Shown: positions 7,394-18,488 of the stretch, piece after piece
Numbering within the stretch: the first letter of the stretch is position 1
Layout of the letters: every line of letters begins with the position of its first letter
NCBI RefSeq assembly: GCF_010550675.1
Contig: NZ_JAAGOA010000039.1
Span: 1-34,164 of the forward strand
DNA from: Phytoactinopolyspora halotolerans
GTDB taxonomy: Bacteria > Actinomycetota > Actinomycetes > Jiangellales > Jiangellaceae
Reading direction: 5' to 3'
DNA length: 34,164 nt
The notes under the pieces: generated by a model
Databases searched by the model: none
What the model was told of the DNA's origin: nothing
Seen by the model: only the letters and a program-made list of their open reading frames with translations
Program-made: the position numbers and the translations under genes

Positions 7394-7430
7394 TGGAGCC
7401 TATATCTACAATCCGCTATAGTCGAGTGCG
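7394..7430 (+). promoter_or_regulatory. Leaderless promoter and possible operator of the HEPN/MNT operon
   Basis: TATAGT (7417-7422) is followed by seven bases and the GTG start at 7430, so transcription probably begins at or next to the start codon. A weak -35 (TGGAGC, 7394-7399) is 17 bases upstream. CTATA (7400-7404) and TATAG (7417-7421) form an inverted repeat overlapping the -10, a plausible binding site for the HTH domain of the first gene. Confidence 0.55.
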
Positions 7431-7951
7431 TGGACACCGTTCATTACGCCGGGACGATACTTCGCGAGGCTCGCAGGAGGGCCAACTTGTCTCAAATGGA
7501 GTTGGCTCGTCGGGCCGGCGTGACGCAGAGCGTGGTGAGCGCCTACGAATCCGGACAGCGCCAGCCGGCGTTGCCAACCCTCGCGCGGCTGATCGAAGCC
7601 ACGGGCCACGACATCGACCTGGTTCTACGTCCCCGCGAAGCGCCACTGCACCAATCATCTGGCCCCTTGGCCAGCAAGGTTCATGCGCACCGCGCTGAAC
7701 TACGAAAGGCGGCGGCGAAGTACGGGGCGTCGAACTTACGTCTCTTCGGCAGCGTGGCACGAGGTGAGGAGTCTGAGAGCAGCGACGTTGACCTGCTCGC
7801 TGATTTCTCCCCGGGCACCAGCCTGTTCACCCTGGCCAGACTGCGACGAGACCTCGAAGCCATCCTCGACGCACCCGTCGACATCGTGCCGGCTAGCGAT
7901 CTGAAACCAGGTGTGCGGGCAGACGTCGAGCGGGACTTGGTCCTCCTATGA
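7430..7951 (+). CDS. MntA-like nucleotidyltransferase antitoxin fused to an XRE DNA-binding domain
   Basis: 173 residues. Residues about 7-62 are an XRE helix-turn-helix (LREARRRANLSQMELARRAG, then TQSVVSAYESGQRQP). Residues about 83-173 are a minimal nucleotidyltransferase domain: GS at 107-108, then Asp119 and Asp121 in SSDVDLLADF, with Asp151 (VDIV) as the likely third carboxylate. MntA antitoxins neutralise HepT by adding AMP to a tyrosine of the toxin. The stop codon overlaps the toxin start by four bases (ATGA), so the pair is translationally coupled. The added HTH suggests direct autoregulation. The leaderless start is supported by TATAGT seven bases upstream. Confidence 0.92.
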   Translation: MDTVHYAGTILREARRRANLSQMELARRAGVTQSVVSAYESGQRQPALPTLARLIEATGHDIDLVLRPREAPLHQSSGPLASKVHAHRAELRKAAAKYGASNLRLFGSVARGEESESSDVDLLADFSPGTSLFTLARLRRDLEAILDAPVDIVPASDLKPGVRADVERDLVLL

Positions 7952-8283
7952 CTCGCCGCGACCAGCAACGCCTGTACGACATCACAACGGCCATCGACAC
8001 CATCCGCCAGCATGTGAACAGAGGCGACCTCAGCGACGGATTGATCTTCGACGCTGTACGTGTACGGCTCATCGAAATAGGTGAGGCAGTCAAGGCACTA
8101 CCGAACGACTTGCTCGAACACGAACCCGGGGTTCCCTGGTCTGAGGTCGCGGGAATGCGCGATCGCCTAGCCCATCATTACTTCGACACGTCACACGCCA
8201 TCCTTCAAGCGACAGTGGAACACGATCTACCCGAACTCGAGCAAGCCGTGCAGCGGCTCCAGGCCCACGTCGACGATGACTAG
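7948..8283 (+). CDS. hepT: HepT-like HEPN ribonuclease toxin
   Basis: A 111-residue helical HEPN protein, the normal size for HepT. The catalytic RX4HXY motif is intact: Arg71, His76 and Tyr78 within MRDRLAHHYFD. HepT toxins are HEPN RNases, and the tyrosine of this motif is the known site of AMPylation by MntA, so both halves of the system look functional. The helix around LIEIGEAVKALP and the later PWSEVAGMRD are also typical. It overlaps the antitoxin gene by four bases. Downstream lies the first copy of the dispersed hairpin repeat, which may act as terminator. Confidence 0.93.
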   Translation: MTRRDQQRLYDITTAIDTIRQHVNRGDLSDGLIFDAVRVRLIEIGEAVKALPNDLLEHEPGVPWSEVAGMRDRLAHHYFDTSHAILQATVEHDLPELEQAVQRLQAHVDDD

Positions 8284-8290
8284 GACAGTC

Positions 8291-8445
8291 GCGCTGTCGA
8301 CGCACGACCTTTCGGTGGGCATGTCCGGAGTTGACCGCGCACGACGCACCAGGCACTGCCGGCGACGGAACGAAGTTGCGGTCGCGATCACGACCGCGAT
8401 GCATGCCTGTTGACGAGCATCACCTCGGGTGTTTGCAGAGTGCGA
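8291..8445. repeat. 155-bp duplicated element, copy 1 (contains hairpin repeat 1)
   Basis: Matches 11372-11526 over exactly the same length with about 18 differences by hand alignment (about 88% identity). It runs from just after the hepT stop into the last 26 bases of the convergent XRE-cupin gene, so it includes that gene's final codons (VALCKHPR and stop). Confidence 0.8.
8368..8406 (+). repeat. Dispersed hairpin repeat, copy 1
   Basis: The stem GCGGTCG/CGACCGC spans 8378-8397 around a six-base CGATCA loop, with flanks GAACGAAG before and ATGCATGC after. It lies between convergent genes. Relative to the GTGGTCG/CGACCAC form, the second stem pair has changed on both sides (T-A to C-G), so pairing is kept. 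Confidence 0.75.
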
Positions 8446-11101: not shown

Positions 11102-11341
11102 GAGGCCGACTATCGTGTCCGCCGGGCCGGGGCCGACGAGCAGCTCACTCCGTCGTCGAGTTCGCGCCTGATCGACGTCAATCTCGACCCGCCGTTTCCG
11201 AACGGCGGTCGGTTCCGCGCGGTTCAGATGCTTGCCGACTCGGCGTTCGTCGACCGTTTCCAGCCGCGCGTCGTATCGACGTCTTGGGCCGTCGCGTGGG
11301 TGGCGGCTGGTCGACGCGCAGCCTACGTCACGGATGAATAG
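11102..11341 (+). pseudogene. Inositol monophosphatase family remnant
   Basis: An 80-codon frame with good coding bias and no start. It reads SRLIDVNLDPPFPN, then FRAVQMLADSAFVDRF, then VVSTSWAVAWVAAGRRAAYV, strongly resembling the middle-to-late region of actinobacterial inositol-monophosphatase-type proteins. It ends at TAG exactly where family members continue with a T-D-G-x-x-R-D-S-V-like stretch. The upstream catalytic D-P-I/L-D-G-T region and the C-terminal part are missing, so this is a decayed fragment. Confidence 0.7.
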
Positions 11342-11371
11342 GGCTGCCGTCGCGCCGCCGCCGCTGCCCTT

Positions 11372-11526
11372 GCGCTGTCTACGCACGACCTTCAGTGGGC
11401 GTGTCCGGAGTCGACCACGTACGACACACCATGCACTGCAGGTGACGGAACGACGTTGCGGTCACGATCACGACCGCGATGCATGCTCGTTGACGAGCGT
11501 CACCTCGTGTGTGTGCAGAGTGCGAT
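11372..11526. repeat. 155-bp duplicated element, copy 2 (contains hairpin repeat 2)
   Basis: Second copy of 8291-8445. On the minus strand its right end reads IALCTHTR then stop, matching the last residues (VALCKHPR, stop) of the XRE-cupin gene at copy 1, with an in-frame stop just before. It therefore carries a piece of a paralogous gene end. It lies 30 bases after the inositol-monophosphatase remnant. Confidence 0.8.
11449..11488 (+). repeat. Dispersed hairpin repeat, copy 2
   Basis: The stem GCGGTCA/CGACCGC spans 11459-11478 with one mispair; flanks are GAACGACG and ATGCATGCTCG. Embedded in the 155-bp element, between convergent genes. Confidence 0.75.
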
Positions 11527-11645
11527 AAATCACCTCGCCTCGCTGGACAGCTCCGGTTGAAAGCCAATCCACCCCGAGCGCGCACCTCGCTCACTCGTAC
11601 GCGCGCCTACGCTTAGGGCGTCTGTCTGCAGCGAACGGTTCAGAT

Positions 11646-12719
11646 CTAGCCCAGCAAGTCCAGGCAAAGCTCGAGCCCTAGCAAACCCAGGCAGGGCGAC
11701 TCGGGTTCGGGCTCTGGCTCCGGTGATGGTTCAGGCGAAGGCTCCGGCTCAGGCTCCGGCGAAGGCTCCGGTTCCGGTTCAGGCGAAGGCTCCGGCTCCG
11801 GATCTGGGTCAGGCTCCGGCTCCGGATCAGGCGAAGGCTCCGGTTCCTGCTCTTCTGGTTCCCGTTCAGGCGACTCCGGCCCTGGCGGCCGCTTGCGCGT
11901 ATCGTCCTGGTCCTCTGGTGATGTCCGTTCCTGTTCCGGCGCGTTCAAGCCCGGGTCCGGCGACGTCGTTCCACCGGACGTCTCGTCGTCGGACGCTCCA
12001 GTCGGGACGCCGGCGGATGCCCCACCAGACGTGGCCGACGACGACCGGGCGACATCTTGAGTGGGAGCGTCTCCGGGCGCGTCCTCAGGATCGGAACCGC
12101 CATCCGGTATAGGCACGCCTTCAGAAGCGCGCATGCCTTCAGCAGCGGGCGCGACTCCGGCGATGGCCGCCGACGGATCACCCGGAAACGCGATCCCGAG
12201 AGCCGCTTCGTTCCCTGGCTGTGAAGGCAGCAGAGAAGCAGACCCGGTCACAACCATCGGCAGCGCGATAACAGCAGCAAAGCGCATGATCCTGGACGGA
12301 CTGTGCGCAGGTACCCACCTCCTGACCAGCGCAGGCATCACGGCTGCAATCGAGCGCCCAGCGACCCCATTGCCAGAGGCCACATTTCCGGCGGCCGCTA
12401 TGCCCGCGGCGTCCGCCTCGGCGATGGAAGGCCCGTCCGCCGGTGCCGGGACATCGGGAACCTCCGGCAGCGACGCTCCGGACATCGCCACAACGGTCTC
12501 ATCGGGCGCGAAGCGATGGACCGTCCGGTACCCGCTGGGATAGACCGTGGCCACCGTCAGGGCATGTTCGCTGTCTCGCGCCCGGTCCATCAACACACGG
12601 ATGACGGCGACGTTGGTCGTGGCTTCTACGACTGGGTCAGGACTATCTCCGATGAAGAGGGTGACGGCTCCTGCGTCGTCGACCTCGATTCTGGCGTCTG
12701 TCGCATAGTTCTCGGTCAC
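11646..12719 (-). CDS. Single-pass membrane protein with long Pro/Glu-rich tail, unknown function
   Basis: 357 residues from the GTG at 12719. Residues 1-80 form a small globular domain ([19 protein letters not shown], then [16 protein letters not shown]). Residues 80-140 are an Ala/Pro-rich linker. One membrane segment lies at about 144-163 ([17 protein letters not shown]). The remaining ~190 residues are disordered and acidic, ending in P-E/P-D repeats (about 11700-11880 in DNA), then a hydrophobic tail [14 protein letters not shown] with Cys residues. The topology suggests a cytoplasmic N-domain with an exported wall-spanning tail. The longer frame to 12827 has no better start. No family recognised. 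Confidence 0.75.
11700..11880. repeat. Imperfect short-period repeats encoding Pro/Glu tail
   Basis: Repeated GGCTCCGG and GGTTCAGGCGAAG-like units, in steps of 6 and 18 bases, encode the EPEPSPEP-type tail of the membrane protein gene on the minus strand. Such tracts change length easily by slippage. Confidence 0.75.
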
Positions 12720-12933
12720 AGCTGCCCCCCGCGAGCTGTTGACTACGTTGTTCTTGCAACCAAGCGGACGATATGCGACTTTCGTACCGTTGTACACCCC
12801 TTTGGCAAGCCCTCTCGCCGCGATCATCAGGCCGCCGACCTATCCGATCCTGCAATGCGGTTCGACGATCGCGAGGGCAGCTCCGCCGGAGGGCCCCGGT
12901 ACGCCAAGATGCGGCGCGCGACGCTCCGCGAAC

Positions 12934-12970
12934 GAACGACATCGTGGTCGCGATCACGACCACGATTCAT
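12934..12970 (+). repeat. Dispersed hairpin repeat, copy 3
   Basis: The stem GTGGTCG/CGACCAC spans 12944-12963, extended by ATC/GAT to ten pairs; flanks are GAACGACATC and CGATTCAT. This is the best match to the consensus. Confidence 0.8.
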
Positions 12971-13091
12971 TTCCCTTCGCTGCGGCAGGCGACGGCTACC
13001 CACTTCCTGCACGAGCATCACCGGCTCAGCCGTGTCATGACCGTGGTTTGCAGGATCGGCAACCGCGGACTACGCGCCGTTTCGACGCCAT

Positions 13092-13126
13092 CATGAGGTG
13101 TACGTTTCAGGCATGAGGTGTACGTT
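13092..13126 (+). repeat. Two direct repeats with 20-bp period
   Basis: CATGAGGTGTACGTT occurs at 13092-13106 and 13112-13126. A 20-base period puts both copies on nearly the same helix face, as in tandem regulator sites. It lies 62 bases before the small gene at 13188. Confidence 0.6.
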
Positions 13127-13187
13127 CGGGCCTCCTGCGCACGAGTGACAACTTCCGCGCTGTGGCAGGGAGAAATGGCCTTCTTTG

Positions 13188-13448
13188 ATGCGGATTACGG
13201 GATGGGGCTTCGCATCGGAATCGGAGACAGTCTGCCTGAGCGACGGTCGCACCCTGCTACGTATCCAGGCGCGACGCGACGGTCGGCTGCGCGCCGAGAC
13301 GCGGTTCGCCCTGGGTCATCACGTCGCCCTGACCGTGCGCTGCAGCACGTGGTGGGACTGGCACTTCGGCCACCGAGAGGGCCTGCCCGCCCTCGCCGAC
13401 CACGTCCGCGCCGCCGTATCCCGAGCCCACCCGCACCGTGCGTCGTAG
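13188..13448 (+). CDS. Small hypothetical protein
   Basis: 86 residues with strong third-position GC bias, so probably real. It reads MRITGWGFASESETVCLSDG, then RLRAETRFALGHHVALTVR, then WWDWHFGHREGLPALADHVR. No family recognised. The mixture of strands and one final helix, with a Trp/His-rich segment (STWWDWHFGH), suggests a compact alpha/beta fold. The ATG at 13188 follows a TTG; no clear ribosome-binding site is present. An overlapping frame beginning with ATG 13175 has worse codon bias and is rejected. Confidence 0.6.
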   Translation: MRITGWGFASESETVCLSDGRTLLRIQARRDGRLRAETRFALGHHVALTVRCSTWWDWHFGHREGLPALADHVRAAVSRAHPHRAS

Positions 13449-13505
13449 CGGCGAAGACAGGCGTCGGGGCACACGAAATCAGCGGAAGTCAACCCGAGGG
13501 ACACC

Positions 13506-13877
13506 TCACCCCTTCAGGACCGCCCACGCAAGTATCTTGTCGAGCCGGCGGATGTCCACCTTCTTGTCGAGCTTCACCTTGATGTGGCCCGCCCGAGTCC
13601 ACAGTTCCAGCTCCGCGTTGACGTCGAACAGCTTGCCCGCATTCTCCGACGACCACATATTGATCGAGCTGTACGGAAGTGAGTAGATCTCGACCTTCTT
13701 GCCGGTCATGCCCTGGGCGTCCCGGACGATGAGCCGCTTGGTCGTGAAGACCGCGCTGTCGCGGAACGTCTTGTATGCGGCAACGGCCTGCTCGCCGTCG
13801 ATGAGCAATTCGTTGACGTCATCGGGAATCGGAATCTCCTGGACCAAGGTCCACGACGTGATGGCTGCGGTCTCCAC
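13506..13877 (-). CDS. Bacterial PH-domain protein (YvbH/bPH-like)
   Basis: 123 residues from the GTG at 13877, chosen because AAGGAG lies seven to eight bases upstream. The sequence EQAVAAYKTFRDSAVFTTKR, then LIVRDAQGMTGKKVEIYSLP, then YSSINMWSSENAGKL, is the standard bacterial pleckstrin-homology pattern, with a C-terminal helix DIRRLDKILAWAVLKG. Such proteins form ring-like oligomers; their role is mostly unknown. No operon partner: neighbours on either side are transcribed from the other strand. Confidence 0.88.
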   Translation of the reverse strand: METAAITSWTLVQEIPIPDDVNELLIDGEQAVAAYKTFRDSAVFTTKRLIVRDAQGMTGKKVEIYSLPYSSINMWSSENAGKLFDVNAELELWTRAGHIKVKLDKKVDIRRLDKILAWAVLKG

Positions 13878-14013
13878 GAACTCTCTCCTTCGACGACGGT
13901 TCAACCAGAGCGCACGTGCTCCGGTGGCGCTTGGACGACCCTCATCGTGCCTCAGACCCTCGACACATCTCCCCTGGCGATCCCGACCGGCGCCAACCGT
14001 GGACGGCGCGAGC

Positions 14014-14050
14014 GAACGACACTGCGGTCGCGATCACGACCACGATGCAC
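14014..14050 (+). repeat. Dispersed hairpin repeat, copy 4
   Basis: The stem GCGGTCG/CGACCAC (14024-14043) has one mispair; flanks are GAACGACACT and GATGCAC. It lies about 40 bases upstream of the UPF0158 start. About 70 bases downstream of the hairpin also resemble the flank of copy 3. Confidence 0.75.
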
Positions 14051-14087
14051 TTCCTTCGTCATGGCAGGCACCGGCTACGGTGGTCGC

Positions 14088-14567
14088 ATGCACGAGCTGA
14101 ATCGCTATGACCTGGGCGAGATCGCCACGGCGCTGCAGGATCAGACCTACGACGAACACCGGTGGCTGATCAACCCTGAGACCGGGGAGATCGTGTTCTG
14201 GACCTCTGATACCGGCATCGATGGCGAGAACCCTGTCGACCTCGACGAGCTGGACGAGCTGGACCTCATCGGCATCGACCCGTTGCCTTCGTACATCTGG
14301 TACCAGGACATGGTCGACTTCACCGAACAGGTCAGCGACGAACAGGCGCAGCGCAGGCTGGTTCGCGCCCTCGACGGCAACGGCGCCTTCCGGAGATTCA
14401 GACGCGAACTGCACGAGGAGTATCCGCACCTGCTGGACGCCTGGCACGCGTTCCGCGACGGCCGGGCAGAACGTCGAGCCGTCGAGTGGCTCGCCGACAA
14501 CTCACTCATCGCCGAAGAAGCGGCTACCCGCTTCCTGCACGAGCATCCCGACCCCGCCGTGCCATAA
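14088..14567 (+). CDS. UPF0158 family protein
   Basis: 159 residues, single-domain. Family features: IATALQDQTYDEHRWLINPE, then TGEIVFW; a central LPSYIWYQDMVDFTEQVSD; then the RALDGNGAFRRFRRELHEEY segment, and ADNSLIAEEAATRFLHEH at the end. The biochemical function of the family is unknown. The start ATG 14088 is chosen over upstream frames because the region before it is the hairpin repeat. Hairpin copies 4 and 5 bracket the gene in the same orientation. Confidence 0.88.
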   Translation: MHELNRYDLGEIATALQDQTYDEHRWLINPETGEIVFWTSDTGIDGENPVDLDELDELDLIGIDPLPSYIWYQDMVDFTEQVSDEQAQRRLVRALDGNGAFRRFRRELHEEYPHLLDAWHAFRDGRAERRAVEWLADNSLIAEEAATRFLHEHPDPAVP

Positions 14568-14580
14568 CCCATCCGCAAGC

Positions 14581-14618
14581 GAACGACATTGCGGTCGCGA
14601 TCACGACCGCACTGTATG
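14581..14618 (+). repeat. Dispersed hairpin repeat, copy 5
   Basis: The stem GCGGTCG/CGACCGC spans 14591-14610 (paired T-A to C-G change again); the left flank is GAACGACATT. The convergent protease gene ends inside it: its last codons and stop (14601-14603) come from the repeat. It separates two convergent genes and is a likely bidirectional terminator. Confidence 0.8.
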
Positions 14619-17600
14619 TCGTTTACCGCGATCGCGCCCACCGGCCGCGAGGGTCGCTGCGCCGCCGACGATGAGCGCCATGCCGGCCAGTGCCCACCAC
14701 CAGGCGTCCGCGCCGGTGTCCGGCAGCTTCGGCGGCGCCCCCGGCGGCTCGGTCGGCTGCGGCTCGCTCGTGGGTTCCGGCTCAGGCGTCGGGCTCGGTT
14801 CCGGCGTCGGAGTCGGCTCGAGCGTCGGAGTCGGAGTCGGCTCGGGTGGCTCGGTAGGCTCGGGCTCGGGCTTTACAGTGAGGTAGGCCCGCTCGATCAC
14901 CTGCTCCAGCGTGTTGCCGTCCCCATCGGTCAGGTTCACCCGCAGCGAGACGCTGCCCGGCTCGTCGGGATGGTCGACGACGAACCGCTCCCCGTCGACG
15001 ATCTCCACCGGCTGCCACGTGCCGCCTTCGTCGAACGAGACGTCGACGGTCAACTCCTCGACGTTGCCCTCGCCGGCCCCCTCGACGACGAACGGCACTC
15101 TCAGCTCCTCCCCCGCCGGCGTCGTGCTCCTGGGCGACAACTCGGGCGTGAAGCGCACTACCGACAGAGGCAACTCCTGGATGTCTTCCTCGCTGGATGC
15201 CTCGGCGTCGAAGCCCCACGTCACCTGGACCCGGTTGCTGACCGTTGACACCTCGCGCGGCCGGGACACGTCGGTACTCAGCTCGAACCGTCCCGCGTCC
15301 GTCGGCGCCGGCCCCAGGTACACCTCCTCGAAAAATCCGTCCAGCGGCCCGTCGATCGCCGCGATCTCGTCACCGTTGAAGCGCAGCGTGCTCCGCGCGT
15401 CGTTGTAGCGGGAGTACCCAGGATTACCAGAGCCGTCGCCGAACGTCGGCACCATCGCCCACACATGCTCGCCCCACCGGAACGCTCCGGGCTCAGACAG
15501 CGGATGCGGCTTACTCAGGGTAGGCCCGAACACGCCGACGTTGTACGTCCTCTCCAGCGTCTCGCCGGCCGAGTATTCGCGCGGCACCGACTGGACGAGC
15601 GTGTCCCCGTCGTACCCGCCGTCCTCTTCGAACTGTGTCGCACCGAAGGACCAGAGGAAGCCGTCGCCGAGGACGAGGTTCTCGGCTTCAGCCGGCAATT
15701 CCAGATCCCATGGGAAGGTCCAGTAGGAGTACGCGTCTTCGTGCATCCAGCCCGTGATGGCCCCGCCCATCCGCTCGGAGGTATGTCCCACCACGGAGTC
15801 GATCACCGCGAAGTCATTCCTCGACGGTGCCTGGCGCATCCCGGCCAGAAGCGTTCCGGTGCCGCGCCAGCCCGCGTGATACCACTCCGGGGAATCGTTC
15901 GAAGGTGGCGAATCACTCGAAGCTCCGGTATTCCACACGCCGAGAAGCTCCGCGGATAGCTGATCATCTGACAACACCGGGCCGAGATCGGCGATGGCGA
16001 TGTCGTTCGGCCCCGTGAAGAAGGGAGTGAATACTTCGAGGCTCGTGGTTTCGGTTTCCACGGTGTACGAATAGAAGCTCCAAGCAGGTTCGGCGTCGGA
16101 GTTTGGCATAGAGATGTCGAACGGTTCGGCCTTACGCGCGTCCAGCACGATCTCGGTGTCGCCGGTGAGGTCGAACATCGGGTTGAGGAGAAGCGTGTAC
16201 CGCTCCCCACCGCCGCCGAAGTAGTCGCCGGTCAGGTTGTATGTGCCTTCCGGCACCCGCAGGGTGGTGCTGCCGTGCTCCTCCGGGAACGCGAACTCCC
16301 ACAACTCCGAGTCCAGCCCGATCAGGTCGGCAGCCGCTTCCGTCGTGGGCCGGCCGTCCGGGTCCAGGAACGTCAGAGTCAGGTCGTACCACGGAGCCTG
16401 TTTCCAGACGCCGACCGCCGTGCTCACCGTCGTATCCGTCTCCGCGTCGGCGGCCGTGACAGTGCCACCGATGACGCCGTGTGGACCTTCCACGCGGGTG
16501 TCGACGGTGACCGTCACGCCGGCCTCACCGCCGGCCGGGACCGTCACCTCGGTCGTGTCCAGCGTGAACATGCCCTCCGGTGCAGGTTTGCCGTCCAGCC
16601 CGTACGCGGAGACGGACAGGTCGAGTTCGACCGGCTCGTCGCCCGCATTGCGGTAGGTCAGCTCTTGCGTCGCCGGTTCCTGCTCGTGCGGGTATTCGTG
16701 GATCCCGAAGTCCACGGCCGCGGGCGTCGTCGTCACGGTCTGCTCGACGGCGCGGGCGACGTCGACCCGGCCTGCCCCTTGTGCGTACGACGAGACTTCG
16801 CCTGGCGTAGCCGACGCCGCCAAGACCGCTTTGATCTGTTCCCCGTCCCAGTCCGGATGCTGCTGCGCCAGGATCGCGGCCGCCCCCGCGACGTGCGGCG
16901 TCGCCATCGACGTGCCGTCATACGCGATGTATGAGCCGCTTCCCTCGCTCTGCACCGCCCGGGCCGCGGTGATCTCCACCCCGGGTGCAGTGACGTCGGG
17001 TTTGAGTGAGCCGTCAGCCGCGGCGCCCCGCGCGGAGAACTCCGCGATGACGTCGCGTTTGTCCACGGCGCCCACGGTGAGCGCTGACGGGGCCGAACCC
17101 GGGCTGTCGACGCTGTGCGCGTAGGGGCCGAAATTGCCGGCGGCCACGACGAACAGCGTTCCCGTCTGCTCCGACAGGTACTCGATCGCCTGCTCCACCG
17201 GGTCAACGTCGGGGGTGTCCTCGCCGCCCAGGCTCAGGTTGACGACGTCGGCACCCTGGTCGACCGCCCACTGCATCGCCGCGACAATGTCCGACTCGTT
17301 CCCCCAGCCCTCGTCGTCGAGGACCTTGCCGTTGAGTAGCTGTGCGCCGGGTGCGACACCGCGGTAGCGCTCGCCGTTTCCCGCCGCGATCGACGCCACG
17401 TGTGTTCCGTGACCGAACCTATCCACCGTGTCTCTCGCGTCCGAGAAGTTCCTGGCCGCGGCGACCCGGCCGGTCAAGTCCGGGTGCGTGTCGTCGATGC
17501 CGGTATCCAGGATCGCGATGGTGGTGCCGGAGCCGTCCAGGCCGGCATCCCACGCGGTGGGCGCACCGATCTGCGGCACGCTGGTGTCCAGCGACGCTCG

Positions 17601-18245
17601 CACGACGCCGTCGAGCCACACCTTCTCGATGCCCGGTGCGAGCGTCCGCGCCGCCGTACCGTCGGCGCGGCCGTTGTCGTCGCCGTCGTCGTCGCTGCCG
17701 TCGTGGTCGGTGATGTCGTCCCAGAACGCGGATGCCTCGTCGCGCTCCACCTCGACCGCGGTCGAGCTCGCACTCGGCAGCCGGTCGGCCACGTCGGCCC
17801 CGGCCGCCGCCGCGACCGTGCGTTCCCCACCCGCATCGGCATGGGTCACGATCACCGGCAGATCGTCCCGGCGCTCGTCGTCGTAGCCGGACTCGACCAG
17901 CTCCGACACGTCGAACAGCCGCCGGTCCAGTTCGCCACGGGCCAGCATCATCCGGGCGTCGGCCGGCACCACCCACGTCTGTTCCTCCACCGTGCGGGTG
18001 GTGAACGACATGTGCTCCCGGCCCGCTGCCGGGCGGACCGTGCGAACCTTCCCGTCCGCGTCCAGGACGACGCGGTCGCCGGTGATCAGCGTCACCGTCG
18101 TGGCCGGGCCGGCGACGACGCCCGCGCCGTCCGTGCCCGTTGCCGGCGCCGAGGCCGCGGTACCCACCATCATCGACGCGGCGGCGCTTACAGCAAGAAG
18201 GGCGGTCACCGCACCGGCGACCGCCCGCCCACACCCTGTTTTCAC
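14601..18245 (-). CDS. Secreted S8 (subtilisin-family) serine peptidase with LPXTG cell-wall anchor
   Basis: 1214 residues from the GTG at 18245 (AGGGG seven bases upstream; an ATG five codons earlier is the alternative). Signal peptide at 1-33 (AVTALLAVSAAASMMVG). A prodomain follows, with an Asp-rich insert (DDITDHDGSDDDGDDNG, about residues 176-192). Catalytic domain about 210-495: Asp247 (AILDTGIDDTHPDL), His279 (GHGTHVASIAAG), oxyanion Asn371 (VVAAGNFGP), Ser446 (DGTSMATPHVAGAA). About 600 residues of strand-rich C-terminal domains follow, then a Pro/Thr/Glu wall-spanning linker, LPDTG (1174-1178), a membrane helix and a basic tail. A sortase should anchor it to the wall; none is encoded here. 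Transcribed alone. Confidence 0.95.
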   Translation of the reverse strand: MKTGCGRAVAGAVTALLAVSAAASMMVGTAASAPATGTDGAGVVAGPATTVTLITGDRVVLDADGKVRTVRPAAGREHMSFTTRTVEEQTWVVPADARMMLARGELDRRLFDVSELVESGYDDERRDDLPVIVTHADAGGERTVAAAAGADVADRLPSASSTAVEVERDEASAFWDDITDHDGSDDDGDDNGRADGTAARTLAPGIEKVWLDGVVRASLDTSVPQIGAPTAWDAGLDGSGTTIAILDTGIDDTHPDLTGRVAAARNFSDARDTVDRFGHGTHVASIAAGNGERYRGVAPGAQLLNGKVLDDEGWGNESDIVAAMQWAVDQGADVVNLSLGGEDTPDVDPVEQAIEYLSEQTGTLFVVAAGNFGPYAHSVDSPGSAPSALTVGAVDKRDVIAEFSARGAAADGSLKPDVTAPGVEITAARAVQSEGSGSYIAYDGTSMATPHVAGAAAILAQQHPDWDGEQIKAVLAASATPGEVSSYAQGAGRVDVARAVEQTVTTTPAAVDFGIHEYPHEQEPATQELTYRNAGDEPVELDLSVSAYGLDGKPAPEGMFTLDTTEVTVPAGGEAGVTVTVDTRVEGPHGVIGGTVTAADAETDTTVSTAVGVWKQAPWYDLTLTFLDPDGRPTTEAAADLIGLDSELWEFAFPEEHGSTTLRVPEGTYNLTGDYFGGGGERYTLLLNPMFDLTGDTEIVLDARKAEPFDISMPNSDAEPAWSFYSYTVETETTSLEVFTPFFTGPNDIAIADLGPVLSDDQLSAELLGVWNTGASSDSPPSNDSPEWYHAGWRGTGTLLAGMRQAPSRNDFAVIDSVVGHTSERMGGAITGWMHEDAYSYWTFPWDLELPAEAENLVLGDGFLWSFGATQFEEDGGYDGDTLVQSVPREYSAGETLERTYNVGVFGPTLSKPHPLSEPGAFRWGEHVWAMVPTFGDGSGNPGYSRYNDARSTLRFNGDEIAAIDGPLDGFFEEVYLGPAPTDAGRFELSTDVSRPREVSTVSNRVQVTWGFDAEASSEEDIQELPLSVVRFTPELSPRSTTPAGEELRVPFVVEGAGEGNVEELTVDVSFDEGGTWQPVEIVDGERFVVDHPDEPGSVSLRVNLTDGDGNTLEQVIERAYLTVKPEPEPTEPPEPTPTPTLEPTPTPEPSPTPEPEPTSEPQPTEPPGAPPKLPDTGADAWWWALAGMALIVGGAATLAAGGRDRGKRHTVRS

Positions 18246-18488
18246 GTTGTCCCCTCGCATTCAGCGAGGCCGCGTGCCGCCCCTCGACACGTCGTGGCCC
18301 CCGCCCACCCGCCGCGCGCACGCCAAGCCCCCTGCGTACGCGGCTACGTAGACAGAAGTAACCTAGCCGTACCGGCGGCCGGAAACCATACCCGTGAGCG
18401 AAACGAAGACATCGTGGTCGTCACCACGACCACAATGCATGCTCGTACGGCAGCCGACCGGAACGCTGAAGCCATCTGTCCCCGGAGG
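18246..18488. other. Protease upstream region
   Basis: 243 bases between the protease start and the end of the VOC gene. It holds hairpin repeat 6 and presumably the protease promoter, but no clear -35/-10 pair was seen. Confidence 0.4.
18398..18443 (+). repeat. Dispersed hairpin repeat, copy 6
   Basis: GTGGTCGT/ACGACCAC spans 18414-18433, an eight-pair stem with a CACC loop; flanks are GAACGA-like plus CATC, and AATGCATGCTCGT. It lies 3' of the VOC gene and upstream of the protease gene, so it may terminate VOC transcription. Confidence 0.75.

Follow-up and report, generated by a model that had tools for sequence, protein, structure and literature searches.

The window analysed here is the whole of contig C33 (34,164 bases), which belongs to a 7.3-Mb genome of 65 contigs (G000). 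At about 14 kb it carries an intact UPF0158 gene with one copy of a hairpin repeat upstream (copy 4, at 14007) and another downstream in the same orientation (copy 5, at 14574), as a sequence-only reading of this DNA had described. A further hairpin (copy 3) lies at 12927; all three are real, all are on the plus strand, and they belong to one family. Copy 3 is followed by a short stretch resembling the two ends of the UPF0158 gene, which the sequence-only reading took either for a former second gene copy collapsed to its ends or for a cassette of hairpin, gene and hairpin. The features are collected in Table 1.

Table 1. Features of the window around the UPF0158 gene and the relic (positions counted from the first base of the window)
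Feature	Position	Strand	Basis or remark
12-base perfect inverted repeat enclosing the relic, left arm	12844..12855	+	12-mer count
Hairpin repeat copy 3, with which the relic opens	12927..12979	+	covariance model 69.6 bits; DNA fold z -3.1 (+), -4.4 (-)
Relic of the UPF0158 5′ flank	12980..12992	+	24-nt in-register comparison with copy 4
CGGCTAC, the one copy remaining at the putative deletion junction	12993..12999	+	sequence, alignments
Relic of the UPF0158 3′ end, including the stop, with one inserted base	13000..13041	+	42/49 columns over 12993-13041; E 1.9e-8
12-base perfect inverted repeat enclosing the relic, right arm	13048..13059	-	12-mer count
bPH_1 (bacterial PH domain) gene between the relic and the intact gene	13506..13904	-	PF08000, E 2.1e-36
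Hairpin repeat copy 4, stem decayed, ahead of the intact gene	14007..14058	+	61.5 bits
CGGCTAC, putative left deletion repeat of the intact gene, overlapping the -10 box	14072..14078	+	sequence
Leaderless -10 box TACGGT	14076..14081	+	6 nt ahead of ATG
Intact UPF0158 gene	14088..14567	+	159 aa; PF03682 37.6 bits
CGGCTAC, putative right deletion repeat close to the gene 3′ end	14521..14527	+	sequence
Hairpin repeat copy 5, past the 3′ end of the gene	14574..14625	+	67.9 bits
S8 peptidase gene, convergent with UPF0158	14601-18260	-	ORF ends at 14601, in hairpin 5

The UPF0158 gene, its promoter and its neighbourhood

The product of the intact gene clearly belongs to UPF0158, scoring 37.6 bits with PF03682 against a Pfam gathering cut-off of 21.1. 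It is 50-79% identical to the proteins of 23 relatives and has no features unusual for the family. No second UPF0158 gene was found in the genome, where 11 of 11 candidates were scored. The predicted structure of the protein (pLDDT 90.6) would indicate neither a new fold nor a function, with a best VIA Z of 3.9 and no PDB match with E <= 0.001 when the model was searched with Foldseek. In the literature, the name UPF0158 occurs in a Chlamydia mutagenesis study.

The position of the -10 box was compared across 24 promoter loci, consisting of the window, the congener G002 and 22 of 32 loci from other genera. TANNNT stands exactly 6 nt ahead of the start codon in 20 of the 24, and at about 10 nt or less in 21, where shuffles expect 1.2; the background rate of TANNNT is 66 in 7,826 windows. 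Ten loci had initially been excluded from this count, nine with a match that does not start at residue 1 and one with a TTG start, and five of these show the same arrangement, which brings the overall figure to 25 of 34. According to PMC3160421, boxes of the TANNNT type mark leaderless genes, which are frequent in actinobacteria, and the leaderless promoter of the window gene is common to its relatives in other genera.

Decay of UPF0158 is common. By our own reading, the gene is broken by frameshift, truncation or internal deletion in 6 of the 32 loci from other genera (L032, L033, L034, L035, L037 and L039), and 2 more of the 32 are without a recognisable UPF0158 N-terminus. One of the broken loci, L039 from Actinomadura alba, has an internal deletion of its own, in which the middle of the gene is gone while the promoter box and the 3′ half are kept. 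The congener G002 has a frameshifted UPF0158 gene together with a 3′ fragment, and a 16/18 match to the UPF0158 promoter, which may be fortuitous, lies about 100 nt upstream of its gene (equalled by 2 of 1000 shuffles).

The 3′ fragment in G002 lies on contig C5 (L081 9755-10651) after a tRNA-like sequence, again by our own reading (ARAGORN calls no tRNA there), and parts of this stretch are read as N. It adjoins a piece that is also found on contig C39 about 6 kb from UPF0158, and the common stretch stops about 20 nt before the C39 hairpin.

Among the UPF0158 loci no conserved neighbour gene was recognised, and several of the neighbour clusters proved to be antisense readings. Plasmid records gave six partial UPF0158 matches with identity below 60%, and phage records gave no UPF0158 match. 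In the window, the S8 peptidase gene, of the LPXTG type, runs into hairpin 5 and takes its final codons and stop codon from the hairpin's part at 14601-14625; the orthologue in G003 has its own tail (by eye). The gene order on C5 of G002 is DinB, hairpin, SPEP-repeat gene, GNAT, HAD, inositol-monophosphatase-like gene and VOC (names by translation reading), and between its SPEP and VOC genes the window has instead the relic, the bPH gene, UPF0158 and the S8 peptidase.

Three other features of the window were noted. A 219-base piece at 11116-11334, a further gene fragment, is 91% identical to part of the inositol-monophosphatase-like gene, which G002 carries complete (C5:88.4-89.2 kb); the piece lies about 107 bases from a hairpin. 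Another repeat of 72 bases, with inverted arms, is found near both contig ends (258-329 and 32951-33022, 86% identical). Two genes at 7430-8283, one for an HTH-nucleotidyltransferase and one HepT-like, resemble a type VII (HEPN/MNT) toxin-antitoxin pair, with both under the curated cut-offs.

The hairpin repeat family

The hairpins were counted with a covariance model built on 29 copies, with E <= 0.001, in a genus set of G000 and its congeners G001-G004. There are at least 59 hairpin places in G000, at least 22 in G002 and at least 1 in G003, of which the weakest may be chance matches, and none at that threshold in G001 and G004 among the 150 candidates scored in each genome. Counts given from here on use 81 of these 82 places, with G002:C2:410237 left out. 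Across 22 genomes of the order, the hairpin was found only in G000 and G002 at E <= 1e-6. Seven hairpins lie on contig C33, and when 59 were placed at random there were at most five per 34 kb in 99.9% of trials. Of the 81 copies, 65 are intergenic, 14 lie within ORFs and 2 are at ORF edges, as judged with a crude gene caller.

Copies 3 and 5 form good folds as single-stranded DNA (z -3.1 to -4.4), whereas copy 4 does no better in this respect than its shuffles (z +0.42 and -0.18). By eye, some copies, including C31:14778, C10:72925, C23:437223 and C12:451889 of G000, are near-symmetric palindromes of two like arms, and many others combine two different arm types. Copies 1 and 2 of the window (8291-8445 and 11372-11525) have about 155 bp in common at 88% identity. 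Between them lies a 3-kb block that contains two genes, one XRE-cupin-like and one for an acetyltransferase of the ArsN1 type (210.6 bits against a cut-off of 210).

Two possible functions of the hairpins were considered and rejected. For a terminator role, the 65 intergenic copies divide between convergent, tandem and divergent spaces as 22/33/10, which is about what the lengths of these spaces give (27%/53%/19%, with the crude gene caller). For a conserved RNA structure, the covariation score was matched by 64 of 500 shuffles and the percentage paired by 33 of 500. The hairpins in 11300-14800 have no Rfam match.

Hairpins that lie close together are co-oriented, in 16 of 16 cases for neighbours 200-5000 bases apart and in 22 of 24 up to 20 kb. 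This count excludes 12 copies with strand scores 10 bits or less apart, and the co-oriented pairs are not all independent because some are orthologous or locally duplicated. The hairpins are best called a dispersed, REP-like palindromic family, found in three of the five genus genomes, and the oddity that remains is their co-oriented clustering. Our literature searches found no paper on this repeat among those listed.

The relic at 12927-13041

The match from which the sequence-only reading set out, 12993-13019 against 14521-14547, is correct in its coordinates and in its count of 26/27. The order that it proposed, with copy 3 followed by sequence like the 5′ flank and then by the gene 3′ end, is borne out as well, in that the front of the relic (12927-12999) agrees with 14007-14078 in 60 of 73 columns. 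The 3′ match extends beyond the 27 bases, so that 12993-13041 agrees with 14521-14568 in 42 of 49 columns including the stop, and this piece carries one inserted base relative to the gene. Both gene ends make up the relic, correctly ordered and oriented, and they meet at one CGGCTAC. When the product of deleting 14079-14527 from the intact copy was predicted, it agreed with 12927-13041 in 95 of 115 columns. The intact gene has CGGCTAC at either end of the stretch missing from the relic, and the relic has it once, at the junction, which is the signature expected of a deletion between short direct repeats.

Because the front of the relic is mostly hairpin, we tested the flank beyond the hairpin separately. 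The 24 nt at 12976-12999, which run through CGGCTAC, match copy 4 in register at 18 of 24 positions with a one-base shift allowed. When the same flank was compared with 80 other hairpin copies, copy 4 was the best, with the next at 15/24, a mean of 10.3 and an sd of 1.9. Taken alone, the stretch between hairpin and junction agrees in 11 of 18 columns, and its unanchored comparison gave a score of 22, tied with an unrelated copy. The homology ends at the left hairpin edge and just past the stop, and outside these limits the best of seven registers gave 18/50 and 16/50. The relic has a hairpin on the left only; the right-hand one is absent.

A blastn search of 12880-13110 against the 7.3-Mb genome gave E 1.9e-8 for the 3′ part, and among the 20 matches listed (best 40 of 75 candidates scored) there was no third genomic place for it. 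The 27-base match was thus not seen to be a common motif of the genome, the finding that had been named as a refutation, since only the gene and the relic were among the matches listed. A transposon with the 12-base inverted ends that enclose the relic was considered and rejected: the 12-mer occurs three times in the genome and two of these are the pair itself, so there is no family.

We conclude, with a probability of roughly 0.8, that 12927-13041 is the relic of a second copy of a unit made up of hairpin repeat, leaderless promoter and UPF0158, collapsed by one deletion, and that the hairpins do not form a cassette. Of the two earlier proposals the first, that a second gene copy was reduced to its ends, is well supported by the order of the ends, the junction heptamer, the decay of frame and promoter and the lack of a third genomic place among the matches listed. 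A full second copy at 13 kb, for which a search of relatives had been suggested, was not found, nor was any genome with an intact second UPF0158 copy at the relic's place.

The events may have run as follows. An ancestral duplication, or a second acquisition, would have started from the left edge of the hairpin and included the whole gene, and the two copies would then have diverged to the present ~17%. Next, slipped replication or single-strand annealing at the two CGGCTAC copies would have removed 449 nt in a single deletion, which the adjacent hairpin, on a single-stranded template, may have helped. Because the left heptamer overlaps the promoter, this deletion would have taken the right half of the -10 box together with almost all of the coding sequence. 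The element that the left CGGCTAC overlaps is a conserved one for UPF0158, as the -10 box keeps its place in 25 of 34 loci. The remnant, without -10 box and frame, would since have drifted as non-coding DNA. In this single case the sound hairpin (copy 3) stands beside the lost gene and the decayed one (copy 4) beside the gene that was kept.

Besides the lack of a genome with an intact second copy and the shortness of the flank between hairpin and junction, two observations speak against a duplicated and collapsed unit. No homology flanks it, so the duplication step itself is unseen, and the hairpin of copy 3 is 84.6% identical to an unlinked copy, C15:70646, and slightly less so, 82.7%, to copy 4, both ungapped over 52 columns.

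To the right of the hairpin at G000:C15:70641-70745 (L084 10642-10746), the copy most like copy 3, lies sequence that resembles the 3′ end of UPF0158. The score of this flank against the gene 3′ end is 31. The next right flank among the 81 copies scores 22, the best left-flank control, leaving aside the gene, scores 26, and 0 of 2000 shuffles reached 31; the pairwise score of the flank to the relic is 29, only 13th of 3240 pairs with ties included. Perhaps this place is a second, older relic.

Cassettes, mobile blocks and known repeat systems

A cassette is expected to have the repeat on both sides, to recur as a unit and to show the same repeats around the gene elsewhere. The second of the earlier proposals, the hairpin-gene-hairpin cassette, did not survive: the relic is without a right hairpin, the hairpins are dispersed (at least 59), UPF0158 loci of other genera are without hairpins and only one UPF0158 gene was found. 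The suggested search of relatives for hairpin-UPF0158-hairpin units came out negative, in that the best of three matches to the hairpin model over the 32 loci from other genera (364,850 bases) was L009, with E 0.077. A looser hairpin pattern, allowing up to 3 mismatches, gave two matches in these loci, one of which (L029) is a palindrome without the outer arms and is not among the three covariance-model matches. In G002, UPF0158 lies at C39:3253 and the sole hairpin found on that contig lies at 10061, more than 6 kb off.

Another explanation, which we consider unlikely, is that the unit is a mobile or duplicable module, where hairpins in the same orientation recombine, excise or duplicate a hairpin-gene unit and rejoin it at another hairpin, and where the relic represents a module of this kind that later lost its interior. 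This would fit the start of the duplicated stretch at a hairpin edge and the end of its homology about 5 nt short of the next hairpin, as well as the uniform orientation of close hairpins, the ~155 bp that copies 1 and 2 have in common around a 3-kb block, and the duplicated stretch in G002 that also stops just before a hairpin. By our own reading, six window hairpins lie in gaps between blocks with differing G002 partners, a weak point because roughly two thirds of the stretch consists of such gaps. Against a module, there is no hairpin to the right of the relic. The bracketing hairpins 4 and 5 have 79% identity (top 4.3% among 2,346 pairs) and are less alike than copies 3 and 4 (83%) or copies 1 and 2 (90%). 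The distance of UPF0158 from the nearest detected hairpin in G002 and the lack of any hairpin better than E 0.077 in the other genera also argue against a module, as does the lack of a Y1 transposase and of an integron integrase over the cut-off in five genomes. In a MITE test, four partly syntenic places were aligned and no clean empty site was seen, with flanks that are too diverged. It is likewise improbable that these palindromes, so far found only in the genus, act as recombination joints at which blocks with one to three genes, each headed by a co-oriented hairpin, are copied, relocated and trimmed; if they did, UPF0158 and the relic would be two states of one block in an integron-like shuffling without integron integrase.

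That an independent hairpin landed by chance beside a short UPF0158 3′-end fragment, copied there alone, is very unlikely. The flank between hairpin and junction is short enough to allow it, and the unanchored score tied with an unrelated copy leans the same way; the in-register comparison, where copy 4 leads all others, speaks against it, as does the distance from hairpin to CGGCTAC, which is equal within one base in relic and gene, with the junction falling exactly on the common heptamer. To take the 27-base match for a widespread motif with no tie to the gene, or for an error of assembly, is hardly credible, despite the weak look-alike to the right of hairpin C15:70646, a 31-base match in G004 and short matches with E 0.02 or worse in 522 kb of G000, because the genome matches listed for the 3′ part (best 40 of 75 candidates scored) are only the gene and the relic, and because ~17% divergence argues against a false duplicate of the same reads. 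The match in G004, at C7, has no other gene sequence around it and was taken as chance.

Collapse of a second copy by one deletion thus remains the preferred reading, and the relic beside REP-like repeats is a case of ordinary genome decay that is unusually readable. It gives a base-level example of accessory gene loss, in which one slip between 7-base repeats would have removed promoter and coding sequence and left a scar of 115 bases. The analysis also uncovers a REP-like palindromic family in an actinobacterial genus, clustered and co-oriented, with no mobiliser identified. If its hairpins did serve as rearrangement joints, they would make a simple gene-shuffling system.

The hairpins resemble REPs of the GTAG and CGTC superfamilies, as described in PMC3733652, in being short palindromes with many copies that are mostly intergenic and restricted to a lineage. 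They differ in having no consistent tag, since of 69 copies 2 have GTAG/CTAC close to the stem ends and 17 have CGTC/GACG there, on either strand. We call them REP-like because the defining GTAG/CGTC tags of the described superfamilies are absent. The same source describes CGTC REPs as having no known dedicated transposase and as forming mostly head-to-head dimers (PMC3733652), whereas hairpin neighbours here have the same orientation; its main text does not contain the words actinobacteria, Streptomyces or Mycobacterium. A REP system driven by a RAYT was rejected, with Y1_Tnp (PF01797) in 0 of 5 genus genomes and in 5 of 14 control genomes. An integron was rejected as well: TIGR02249 IntI matches were over the cut-off in 0 of 5 genomes and below it in 5 of 5, and with 0 of 14 controls over the cut-off this search has no positive control. 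Integron cassettes are likewise genes bounded by structured repeats in the same orientation, but here there is no IntI over the cut-off, the genes have mixed orientations and the relic is without a right-hand repeat.

A close parallel to our preferred reading lies in deletions that occur between short direct repeats in the vicinity of palindromes. Archaeal polymerases have been shown in vitro to slip on a single-stranded template with a hairpin and short direct repeats (PMC4134008). The relic likewise has one 7-base repeat at its junction and a hairpin close by, and differs in being a fossil event, whose mechanism we infer from its product.
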